A stretch of DNA of 45,415 nucleotides from Clostridiales bacterium DTU089 (GTDB lineage Bacteria > Bacillota > Clostridia > Oscillospirales > Acutalibacteraceae), in the NCBI GenBank assembly GCA_001513045.1, contig LFSB01000011.1, positions 10,402-55,816 on the forward strand, written 5' to 3'. The translations under genes were made by a program, and so were the position numbers. Positions 14,429 through 17,003 of this stretch are shown one piece after another; within the stretch, counting starts at the first letter, position 1, and every line of letters starts with the position of its first letter. A model generated the notes under the pieces. That model did not search any database, was not told the origin of the DNA, and saw nothing but the letters and a program-made list of their open reading frames with translations.

Positions 14429-15256
14429 ATGGACTTCAATAACAAACTTGAACGCAAAGCCTCTCAGCGCCCCCTTATAGCCGCTCACCGCGGTGTATCC
14501 GGGGCAAACATCCCATGCAATACGCTTGCGGCATACAACATCGCGCTTCTGCAGGGTGCGGACATTGTGGAGCTTGACGTAAGCAGAAGCAGAGACGGCG
14601 TGCTTTATGCCTTTCATCCCGGAATGGAGCATGCCCACCTGAAAAGCAAGAGGTTTATCGCCTCGCTTAACTCGCGGAGCGTCAACCGCATGCGCTTTGT
14701 AAATCTCGACAACGTAAAGACCCATTATCCCGTAAGCACCCTTGAAGAGGCGTTTGCGTTTCTCAAGGATAAATGCTACATAAATGTGGACAAGTTCTGG
14801 ACTTATCCCGCGGAGATAACCGCAATGATACGCAAGTGCGGAGTTGACAAGCAGGTAATAATAAAGACACCCGCCGAGGAAAAGCATTTTGCAAACGTTG
14901 AGAAATATGCTCCGGATTTGATGTATATGACAGTGATTTCCGAGGAGGACCGCTGCACGGACGCGCTTCTCAAGAGAAATATAAACTACATCGGTGCCGA
15001 GGTGCTGTTTTCACGAGAGGATTCTCCCGCAATATCAGAGGAATACATAAAACAAATGCACGACAAGGGTCTGCTCATCTTCGGCAACGCCATAGTCTAT
15101 AACGAGAAAGCGAACATCAGCGCCGGGCACACCGACGATGCCGCTCTGACGCAAGACATGAATGCCGGCTGGGGCTGGTTTGAGGACAAGGGCTTTGACA
15201 TCATACAAACCGACTGGGTGCAGATGCTTCGTGAATATCTTGAAAACAGAGGATAA
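14429..15256 (+). CDS. Glycerophosphodiester phosphodiesterase family protein
   Basis: A 275-residue GDPD-type TIM barrel. AAHRGVSGANIPCNTLAAY carries the first catalytic His and Arg. ADIVELDVSRSRDG supplies the metal-binding Glu and Asp, and AFHPGMEH the second catalytic His. The barrel ends with DIIQTDWVQML in place of the usual LLTDxP. Members split glycerophosphodiesters into an alcohol and glycerol-3-phosphate. The inserted HAHLKSKRFIASLNS segment departs from standard GlpQ, so specificity may differ. The ATG at 14429 is favoured, with AAAGGCGGG upstream, but a start at 14393 cannot be excluded. There is no signal peptide, so the protein is cytosolic. Confidence 0.85.
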   Translation: MDFNNKLERKASQRPLIAAHRGVSGANIPCNTLAAYNIALLQGADIVELDVSRSRDGVLYAFHPGMEHAHLKSKRFIASLNSRSVNRMRFVNLDNVKTHYPVSTLEEAFAFLKDKCYINVDKFWTYPAEITAMIRKCGVDKQVIIKTPAEEKHFANVEKYAPDLMYMTVISEEDRCTDALLKRNINYIGAEVLFSREDSPAISEEYIKQMHDKGLLIFGNAIVYNEKANISAGHTDDAALTQDMNAGWGWFEDKGFDIIQTDWVQMLREYLENRG

Positions 15257-15316
15257 AAGCGAAATGGTACATCTTGTATACTGTGACAACTCAAAATTAT
15301 GTACATCCGCCCAAGC

Positions 15317-15345
15317 TTGACTTTTGCCGTATTGCGCTGTAAAAT
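15317..15345 (+). promoter_or_regulatory. Promoter of the DMT transporter leader
   Basis: TTGACT (15317-15322) and TAAAAT (15340-15345) are 17 bases apart. Transcription should begin at about 15352, so that the RNA starts directly with the structured leader at 15352-15404. Confidence 0.75.
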
Positions 15346-15351
15346 ATAAAA

Positions 15352-15404
15352 AATCCGGGTGAGCACCTACCGACAGTCAGGCTGAAAATGCCCGGCTGTT
15401 TTTT
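15352..15404 (+). promoter_or_regulatory. Candidate riboswitch/attenuator leader
   Basis: The short leader can fold two ways. Terminator: CAGTCAGGC (15374-15382) pairs with GCCCGGCTG (15390-15398), one mismatch, followed by TTTTTT. Antiterminator: CCGGG (15355-15359), extended by two G-U pairs, pairs with CCCGG (15391-15395) inside the terminator's 3' arm. GGTGAGCACC (15358-15367) makes a third competing hairpin. Exclusive helices right after a promoter and 40 bases before a transporter gene are the mark of a transcriptional riboswitch. Class not identified; guanidine-IV is a guess. Confidence 0.6.
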
Positions 15405-15443
15405 CTTGCAACACAACTACAATAACATCAGAGGAGATTCTTT

Positions 15444-15866
15444 ATGTGGAGTTATATCTGGCCGATAGCACTTGTGGTGCTTGCAAACACCTTCTACAAC
15501 ATAATTACGAAATCAACCCCTTCGGACGTCAACGCCTTCCTTTCGCTGAGCATAACCTACATTGTTGCCGCGGCTGCCTCCTTTGCCGCCTACCTTCTCA
15601 CCGGCGGACACAAGCTCTCCGAGGAGCTGCCTAAGCTTAACTGGACGGCCTTCGCCCTCGGAATATGCATTATCGCTCTTGAGGTGGGATACATATACGT
15701 CTACCGCGCGGGTTGGAAGGTCAACACCGGCTCGTTGGCGGCAAACATTTCACTCGCCTGTGTGCTTGCGGTTGTGGGATTTTTACTGTATCGCGAGAGC
15801 CTCTCGTTCAAACAGGTTCTGGGTATGCTCCTGTGCACCGGAGGACTTGTGTTGATTACACTTTAA
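15444..15866 (+). CDS. Small DMT/EamA-type transporter
   Basis: A 140-residue membrane protein with five predicted helices (about 4-22, 30-53, 67-88, 97-115 and 121-139). The last two, with YRESLSFKQVLGMLLCTGG, match the conserved end of EamA/DMT transporter halves. The length corresponds to half of a ten-helix EamA protein, so it would act as a dimer, like small multidrug resistance transporters. GAGGAG (15431-15436) precedes the ATG. It has its own promoter and a leader that can fold into a terminator, which suggests it is switched on by a small molecule, perhaps its own efflux substrate. The substrate is unknown. Confidence 0.82.
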   Translation: MWSYIWPIALVVLANTFYNIITKSTPSDVNAFLSLSITYIVAAAASFAAYLLTGGHKLSEELPKLNWTAFALGICIIALEVGYIYVYRAGWKVNTGSLAANISLACVLAVVGFLLYRESLSFKQVLGMLLCTGGLVLITL

Positions 15867-15882
15867 GTAAAAAAAATTGATA

Positions 15883-15911
15883 TTGCTATTGCAACGGTGA
15901 AATGGTAATAT
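15883..15911 (+). promoter_or_regulatory. Possible promoter of the seven-gene operon
   Basis: TTGCTA (15883-15888) and TAATAT (15906-15911) are 17 bases apart, 40 bases before the GTG of the DUF2087 gene. The boxes are only moderate matches, but no better promoter lies between here and 22,799. Confidence 0.4.
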
Positions 15912-15951
15912 GTTTGTATACCGATGCGGCACGCAAAAGGACGGAGATATT

Positions 15952-16254
15952 GTGAATACAGAAAAACAGCTTTCAAACTTTCTTGATGCAAACGGACGTC
16001 TGTATGCTTTCCCGGCAAGACGTAAAATGAAAATTTGCTCCCTGATGTTTTTTTCGGAGAGCTTTGAAACCGGAAGGATTTATTCCGAACCCGAGGTCAA
16101 CGATATAATAAATTCACACAGCACCTTCAACGACCCCGCTACTGTAAGACGGGAGCTGTGCGCCTATGGCTTTTTAGAGCGCACAACCGACTGCAAAATT
16201 TACCGAAAGCCCGAGACTTGTCCTACTTTCAATACAACGGAGGAAGAGCATTGA
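15952..16254 (+). CDS. DUF2087-domain protein
   Basis: A 100-residue protein matching DUF2087 throughout: FLDANGRLYAFPARRKMKIC, SEPEVNDIINSH and the terminal RRELCAYGFLERT. The domain looks like a small winged-helix module and is often attached to ArsR-type regulators, so a DNA-binding role is plausible. The GTG at 15952 is preferred, with GGACGGAG five bases upstream. The reading from 15910 adds 14 residues without a good site. Its stop overlaps the TTG start of the next gene (TTGA), so the two are translationally coupled. It is the first gene of the operon ending at 22782 and might regulate it. Confidence 0.82.
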   Translation: MNTEKQLSNFLDANGRLYAFPARRKMKICSLMFFSESFETGRIYSEPEVNDIINSHSTFNDPATVRRELCAYGFLERTTDCKIYRKPETCPTFNTTEEEH

Positions 16255-17003
16255 ATATTATAACCTTAACTCGCGAAAACCTTGAAAAAGAACATATCTG
16301 CTGTGCCATCTCCAACAACAACGACTGTCAGGTCGCATCAAAAAAGGCATGGCTGGCAGAGCGCTTTGATGACGGACTTGTCTTCAAAAAGGGTGATGTC
16401 CGCGGAAAATGCTTTATTGAATACATCCCCGCCGAAAAGGCGTGGGCACCTATTGATGCCGACGGCTATATGTATATTGACTGCCTGTGGGTATCCGGTC
16501 AGTTCAAGGGGCAGGGCTTTTCCACCCTGTTGCTTGACGAATGCATACGCGACAGCAAGGAAAAAGGCAAAAAGGGCATTGTTGTGCTCTCCGCAAAAAA
16601 GAAAATGCCGTTTCTTTCCGACCCGAAATATCTTGAATACAAGGGCTTTTTAAAGGCGGACAGCGTACAGCCTCACTATGTACTGTATTATCTTCCGTTT
16701 GACTCCTCAGCCGAGGCGCCGTCCTTCAGGGCATGTGTAAAATGCCCCGAGGTTAAGGAAAACGGCTTTGTGCTTTATTACGCCCACCAATGCCCGTACA
16801 CGGCAAAGTATGTGCCGATAATTGAAGAAATCGCAAAGCAGCGCGGTGTTGCCTTTAAATCCGTTCTCTTTAAAAGCTGTGAGCAGGCGCAGGCATCCCC
16901 TGCCCCGTTTACATCTTACAGTCTGTTTCATAACGGCGAGTTTGTTACCAACGAAATACTCTCCGATAAAAAATTTATGAAAATGCTTGACGAGCTTTAT
17001 TGA
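16251..17003 (+). CDS. GNAT acetyltransferase with YoaP-like domain
   Basis: A 250-residue fusion. Residues about 1-140 form a GNAT acetyltransferase, with IDCLWVSGQFKGQGFSTLLL as the acetyl-CoA motif. Residues about 150-250 match the YoaP-like domain seen in Clostridial and Bacillus YoaP proteins, including YYAHQCPYTAKYVP, SYSLFHNGEFVTNEIL. The second domain has a thioredoxin-like strand pattern with a single Cys-Pro. The TTG at 16251 is chosen because GGAGGAAG lies six bases upstream; the longer reading overlaps the DUF2087 gene in another frame. Coupled to DUF2087 and followed 20 bases later by the PHP gene. The acetyl acceptor is unknown. Confidence 0.85.
   Translation: MNIITLTRENLEKEHICCAISNNNDCQVASKKAWLAERFDDGLVFKKGDVRGKCFIEYIPAEKAWAPIDADGYMYIDCLWVSGQFKGQGFSTLLLDECIRDSKEKGKKGIVVLSAKKKMPFLSDPKYLEYKGFLKADSVQPHYVLYYLPFDSSAEAPSFRACVKCPEVKENGFVLYYAHQCPYTAKYVPIIEEIAKQRGVAFKSVLFKSCEQAQASPAPFTSYSLFHNGEFVTNEILSDKKFMKMLDELY

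Follow-up and report, generated by a model that had tools for sequence, protein, structure and literature searches.

In the guanidine-IV riboswitches (GGAM-1, or mepA motif), as described in the portion of PMC7736828 at hand, loop 1 pairs with bases conserved within the terminator hairpin and the element is an ON switch of efflux genes, including SugE and PnuC genes. The class is also treated in the available parts of PMC11611296 and PMC12186494, and in the C. botulinum representative the kissing pair C30-G71 joins bases 41 nt apart. Gd4v, a variant of guanidine-IV, consists according to the accessible text of PMC9788692 of a hairpin and a terminator joined by a pseudoknot; it is a proposed ON switch without known ligand, gut-enriched, associated with GNAT and MATE genes, and found upstream of a PRK07324 transaminase in more than 50% of cases. 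A third relevant system is subtype 2d of ykkC, an orphan variant of the guanidine-I (ykkC) fold that lies upstream of EamA genes (PMC7266159, in the part available).

The stretch analyzed here (the window, 45,415 nucleotides from Clostridiales bacterium DTU089) contains a leader resembling ykkC subtype 2d in being a candidate orphan riboswitch 5′ of EamA genes. The guanidine-I model RF00442, which may not cover subtype 2d, matches the SMR control loci L033 and L046 and not the window leader. Thirty SMR loci were found, the upstream stretches of 29 were inspected, and Rfam was run on 5. Ahead of the SMR genes of three Bacillota genomes (L047, L050, and L038) are leaders that combine a GCCG loop and an AGGCC loop with a terminator, and to which Rfam assigns no family; these leaders are possibly guanidine-IV or another SMR-associated motif. 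Rfam 15, which may lack a guanidine-IV model, gave no match in the window at gathering score and none in 15250-15500 at E up to 5, nor any at the leaders of L004, L016, and L030. No description of this leader was found in the open-licence literature.

The leader and its conserved core

The leader (15350-15405) lies between a glycerophosphodiester-phosphodiesterase-like gene, which ends at 15256, and the EamA gene, which starts at 15444. Transcription would start near 15352, and the leader measures about 53 nt to the end of the T-run. The earlier note had described here a good promoter, a terminator, complementary CCGGG and CCCGG strands that would form an antiterminator, and a half-size DMT gene, and direct reading finds all of these in place (Table 1). 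The window sequence alone is insufficient to lift the leader above chance. The promoter is a good match to consensus but not better than shuffled sequence provides (3 promoter-like sites in 2.8 kb, both strands, where shuffles average 3.5), and the terminator has its stem and T-run but such sites are no commoner than in shuffles (5 against a mean of 3.5, same 2.8 kb and both strands). The fold of the leader has a z of -1.87, with 14 of 200 shuffles equally stable. It is conservation in relatives that raises the leader above chance. For example, 25 of 46 leaders have a -10-like box 6-30 bases 5′ of the core, against a mean of 8.2 in shuffles (sd 2.5, maximum 17).

Table 1. Features of the leader region, in window coordinates.
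Feature	Position	Strand	Basis or remark
Sigma-70-like promoter TTGACT-17-TAAAAT	15317..15345	+	10/12 consensus match; alone not above chance
-35 box TTGACT	15317..15322	+	Sequence; 17-base spacer to -10 box
-10 box TAAAAT	15340..15345	+	Sequence
Strand CCGGG	15355..15359	+	Complementary to CCCGG 15391-15395; antiterminator of the earlier note; 1/36 terminator-type leaders
Aptamer-like core, P1 hairpin and pseudoknot (28 bases)	15356..15383	+	Alignment A3, 27 rows
P1 5′ strand CGG	15356..15358	+	Alignment; pairs C15356-G15372, G15357-C15371, G15358-C15370
Pseudoknot 5′ strand AGC, in P1 loop	15362..15364	+	Paired in 100% of cells, 25 distinct rows; pairs A15362-U15383, G15363-C15382, C15364-G15381
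P1 3′ strand CCG	15370..15372	+	In many relatives partly in terminator or anti-Shine-Dalgarno helix
Intrinsic terminator	15373..15404	+	Stem about 15373-15399, then T15399-15404
Terminator pairing		+	Fold; 15373-15378 with 15394-15399; 15380-15382 with 15390-15392; loop 15383-15389
Pseudoknot 3′ strand GCU	15381..15383	+	G15381 and C15382 reused in window terminator
Shine-Dalgarno-like AGAGGAG	15430..15436	+	Direct reading
Half-size EamA/DMT transporter, 140 aa	15444..15866	+	PF00892, E 1.2e-08, 35.8 bits, cut-off 28.2

A pattern scan of named genomes gave at least 118 loci. Of these, 37 were retained (26 of 80 and 11 of 38) and 81 taken as chance; retention was decided by eye, for loci in an intergenic position that are followed by a gene and show either a terminator or a start signal. 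These 37 (among the matches listed), the window, and nine leaders from other genomes make up the 47 leaders tabulated. Alignment A3 (27 rows) defines a shared 28-base pseudoknot core, CGGGUGNGCACCUACCG-N(4-8)-AGGCN′, in which P1 is a 3-bp hairpin and its loop bases NGC pair with GCN′ 3′ of P1. The model R2 scores the window core at 47.3 bits (E 6.7e-09), the window row being itself in the training set of R2. Positions U5, GCACCUACC (8-16), and GGC are invariant in A3, and the rest of the first 17 positions, N excepted, reach 90% conservation or more. Part of the loop's near-invariance is built in, because the patterns behind most rows prescribe it: 22 of the 27 come from a pattern fixing GGUGNGCACCUACCG and AGGC, and four from a 25-base pattern. 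L250, which was found by model, has an altered loop base and keeps the pseudoknot through wobble pairs.

The first pseudoknot pair covaries, and this covariation is not built in, because N and the base after AGGC were left free in the named-genome pattern. In the first 26 named leaders, N and N′ form 25 Watson-Crick pairs and one G-U, a result never equaled in 100,000 permutations; among the chance hits of the same pattern (54, all from the first batch), N and N′ pair in 17. The 25 distinct rows of the alignment have A-U in 14, G-C in 8, C-G in 2, and U-G in 1, and slid versions of the pairing perform far worse. Mapped on a tree of 32 half-size EamA proteins, the four pair types require three changes, which is the minimum for that number. 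Within the leaders of GNAT, full-size EamA, and MATE genes, one finds C-G, U-G, G-C, and A-U. The spacing of the inner pseudoknot pair is 15-19 nt across leaders. For P1 itself, covariation support is modest: across the 25 distinct rows, a double change from C-G to U-A is seen once and a single mismatch twice. The helix has just 3-4 bp, most of whose bases were fixed by the search patterns.

Terminators and a putative translational platform

A terminator is present in 36 of the 47 leaders and absent from 11. The strict rule (a hairpin with 8 bp or more, then a T-rich run) recognizes 34 of the 47, to which two were added by hand: L129, with four T, and the window, where the A15379/C15393 mismatch interrupts the stem. 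Above this mismatch a top GGC-UGAAAAU-GCC is possible, and many other leaders have a single unbroken stem. Over all 47 leaders, the arms of the terminator form on average 10.0 bp with their own partners versus 7.2 when partners are swapped (sd 0.26; maximum of 2000 swaps, 8.23). The same comparison on 34 selected leaders (11.4 versus 7.9) is biased through selection, and the test on all 47 was used instead. The stem sequences differ between groups, with ACAGUC in many EamA leaders and UAUGC-type stems in five of the six MATE leaders. Since own arms beat swapped ones and the UAUGC-type stems are still complementary, terminator complementarity outlasts replacement of the stem.

Terminator and core make use of the same bases. 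In 24 of the 34 strictly scored leaders, the terminator stem extends into the 3′ strand of the pseudoknot; it takes up at least two of the three bases of the P1 3′ strand in 17, and at least its G in 32. The pseudoknot strand, two or more P1 3′ bases, or both are in the stem of 32 of the 34, the exceptions being L152 and L250. Hence, terminator and core are mutually exclusive in nearly all of them. The two mutually exclusive folds of the earlier note thus stand with the P1/pseudoknot core as the alternative to the terminator, but not with the helix that it had named: at least five Watson-Crick pairs of CCGGG:CCCGG occur in 1 of the 36 terminator-type leaders, the window alone. This helix was rejected as a conserved switch, and it may help locally in the window. 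Covariation in homologues, set beforehand as the test of the proposal, is found in the pseudoknot and in the terminator stem, but not in the CCGGG:CCCGG helix.

The 11 leaders without terminator have a Shine-Dalgarno sequence 11-16 bases 3′ of the core, and the loop/P1 strand CACCUACCGNN is complementary, to a variable extent, to the Shine-Dalgarno region. The duplex is strongest in L138, at -15.8 kcal/mol for 11 bp and a single bulge, and in L139 and L142 (-15.6), and weak in L176 and L027 (-5.7). Its mean energy is -10.6 kcal/mol (n = 11) versus -5.9 for shuffled and -9.4 for swapped sequences, with 1 of 500 swaps as strong. By this comparison, much of the strength of the duplex is that of a conserved loop matching any Shine-Dalgarno sequence. 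In 4 of the 11 (L138, L139, L142, and L176), the Shine-Dalgarno is paired to the loop/P1 strand in the best fold predicted; in the remaining best folds it is paired with coding bases or open. The first pseudoknot pair is G-C in all 11 non-terminator leaders versus none of the 36 with a terminator. This link between G-C and platform rests on few events, because one change is enough for the G-C rows on the half-size EamA tree. An aptamer-like core with a mutually exclusive platform can thus be recognized in the leader sequences, more weakly so for the group that would act on translation. In eight non-terminator EamA leaders (L097, L118, L138, L162, L208, L027, L028, and L249), AGGCC is complementary to UGGCC in early Trp-Pro codons. 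The pairing is predicted in seven of the eight (not in L138) and could be part of a translational switch.

Downstream genes, proposed mechanism, and alternative readings

The gene after the window leader is, as the earlier note had it, a half-size DMT gene with a single EamA domain; its 140-aa product matches no PDB chain by sequence at E up to 1. The genes after the 47 leaders are half-size EamA (33), MATE (6), full-size EamA (3), GNAT (2), and three others. The last are L176 (cut two codons into the gene), L191 (a broken frame that begins EamA-like), and L025 (a UvrD-like helicase), the assignments of L191 and L025 being made by reading. EamA-domain genes thus follow 36 of the 47 leaders. 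Among ten representatives, Pfam upholds the MATE, EamA, and GNAT assignments, and half-size EamA has no NCBIfam match. The description of the leader as riboswitch-like and unassigned has held: Rfam 15 does not match it, its pseudoknot covaries, and several gene families lie downstream.

Within the window, DUF2087 and GNAT/YoaP-like genes (15910-17003) follow EamA in the same orientation, 43 bases further on and without predicted terminator, and the leader may control the acetyltransferase as well. Relatives of these two genes were not found after the other leaders, many of whose loci end within about 1.5 kb. At L025, a leader copy with 3 mismatches (1501-1525) keeps its terminator 5′ of the helicase gene, a context that does not fit efflux. 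About 150 bases with an inverted repeat separate the leader of L191 from its broken EamA start, and in L029 (identical in DNA to L187) the leader is separated from the gene by a repeated stretch of GTCGGGGTCCCC type.

The evidence supports a conserved regulatory RNA well, and we regard it as highly probable. That it is a riboswitch binding a ligand is, from the comparison of sequences, quite probable as well. We favor, as rather likely, the reading of the leader as an orphan ON riboswitch of a compact pseudoknot class that is probably not yet described. In the absence of ligand, the nascent RNA would form the terminator, which would take the pseudoknot 3′ strand, the P1 3′ strand, or both, and transcription would halt 5′ of the transporter gene. 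A ligand bound on P1 and the NGC:GCN′ pseudoknot would withhold these strands from the terminator; RNA polymerase would continue and the exporter would be produced. In the second group, the loop/P1 strand would pair with the Shine-Dalgarno region, and the same core would act on translation. The core, its covarying pseudoknot, the mutually exclusive partners, and the gene contexts can be read in the sequences, and from them we infer ligand binding and the direction of the switch. Because DMT and MATE exporters and GNAT acetyltransferases lie downstream, the likely ligand would be a toxic organic cation or amine of small size. We give even chances to the fuller proposal of a new riboswitch class with a pseudoknot aptamer of about 28 nt, among the smallest, for a toxic metabolite common in the guts of animals, with strands that would either block the terminator or free the Shine-Dalgarno.

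If the class is new, the identity of its ligand would hint at what the half-size DMT exporter and the MATE and GNAT genes under this control act on, and would give a substrate to the half-size EamA exporters, whose function is uncharacterized. Such a tiny core, with apparent transcription and translation platforms, would be a good object for the function of small aptamers and for how guanidine-IV-like designs arise.

Whether the class is undescribed, set apart from guanidine-IV and Gd4v by their published descriptions, is finely balanced. Membership in Gd4v, or a place as a compact subset of it, is possible though unlikely; it overlaps with the favored reading, because a leader belonging to Gd4v would be an orphan ON riboswitch too and the class assignment alone would differ. 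By the part of PMC9788692 available, Gd4v and the leaders have in common the hairpin joined to a terminator by a pseudoknot, the gut bacteria, and GNAT and MATE genes (2 and 6 of the 47 here). However, transaminase genes dominate there and EamA genes here, and no PRK07324 transaminase follows any of the 47 leaders (44 genes assigned to other families, 3 by reading). R2 finds nothing better than E 0.54 over 30 SMR loci and 30 loci of the PRK07324 model, 2 of the latter 30 being above cut-off and none shown to carry a Gd4v leader. Of 26 PRK07324-model loci taken further, L224 and L235 yielded no gene; such a leader was also not seen in the stretches upstream of the other 24, a few of whose starts are maybe too far upstream, and a PRK07324 search in 131 genomes of the order of genome G567 gave none at E up to 1e-70. 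Within the accessible text of PMC9788692, Gd4v constructs measure 95-105 nt, against about 53 nt for the leader here, and loop 2 has a conserved G57/U58, whereas the leaders have no invariant GU, though most EamA leaders have one. The same portion makes no mention of EamA or DMT. Neither it nor the part of PMC7736828 at hand describes leaders without terminator, unlike the set found here.

An attenuator bound by a protein, or one independent of metabolites, would use the conserved RNA site to control termination or ribosome access. The small, strongly conserved loop suits it, and a dedicated protein-bound attenuator is possible because 36 of the 47 leaders precede EamA-domain genes. However, several gene families, two platforms, and a conserved pseudoknot are more riboswitch-like, and we consider this reading improbable. 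Slightly more doubtful still is a diverged guanidine-IV riboswitch sensing guanidine. As far as the available text of its sources goes, the design is the same, a pseudoknot between the P1 loop and bases conserved in the terminator hairpin, and efflux genes of the MATE class are common to both. However, sugE, its commonest gene there, is not seen after the 47 leaders, and neither is PnuC; the best R2 match in the 30 SMR loci has E 3.8. The kissing pair of C. botulinum, 41 nt apart, contrasts with an inner pair 15-19 nt apart in the leaders, and two separate hairpins there contrast with a tight pseudoknot here, in a comparison made by text only. A chance fold before a constitutive gene, which the weak single-sequence statistics would allow, is contradicted by covariation and recurrence and can be dismissed as extremely improbable.

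Distribution among genomes

The candidate riboswitch is unevenly distributed among the relatives of its gene. The window EamA protein has matches in 20 of 150 genomes of the family, its own included, and 13 further EamA matches are close orthologs (E 2.1e-32 or better, 43-65% identity). Relatives thus keep the transporter, but R2 finds the core in just 3 of these 13 (L004, L012, and L016) and not in the other ten; the DNA of L004 and L012 is also among the rows of R2 or duplicates of these. Such a patchy core fits gain or loss by lineage, and it makes a strict tie between leader and gene less convincing. Of 394 genomes of the order, 8 (the window's own among them) contain the 25-base leader pattern with at most 3 mismatches, and none contains its reversed control; seven of the eight matches (the window included) are 5′ of an EamA ortholog, and the eighth, L025, is 5′ of a helicase-like gene. 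A nucleotide search with the leader among relatives found just itself (1 of 60).

At larger distances, in a set of 398 genomes from the phylum, model R1 has matches in 37 (E up to 0.05), the clear ones being its own, L063, and L064 (E 1.7e-4 or better); nine further R1 matches were inspected and taken as chance by score. R2 gives 4 matches among 140 genomes from the class to which G567 belongs; we take this class to be Negativicutes because G936, of the same family, shares DNA with the named Selenomonas locus L113. L006 has GAGCACCU and AGGCU, a poor P1, and no R2 match; it was omitted as a possible degenerate copy. A GNAT search in 111 genomes, run with no positive control, gave none. The leader pattern has no match in viral contigs, and the leader DNA has partial matches alone in plasmids and phages, at E 1 or worse. 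Seven plasmid regions (one SMR, five MATE, and one EamA) contain no leader of this type; the leader of the SMR region is guanidine-I-like by eye.

As far as titles and lineages tell, all 37 retained leaders (among the matches listed) are from Bacillota. Many of these loci come, by title, from rumen or from goat, sheep, deer, or chicken gut samples; the guts of livestock, poultry, and people are the source of many of the carriers. Cultured carriers include Evtepia gabavorous, Oscillibacter sp. PC13, [Clostridium] citroniae, and Pseudoflavonifractor capillosus. Three EamA orthologs that lack the core (L005, L007, and L008) have other short terminator-like hairpins directly 5′ of the Shine-Dalgarno, which are perhaps other attenuators or the ends of upstream genes.
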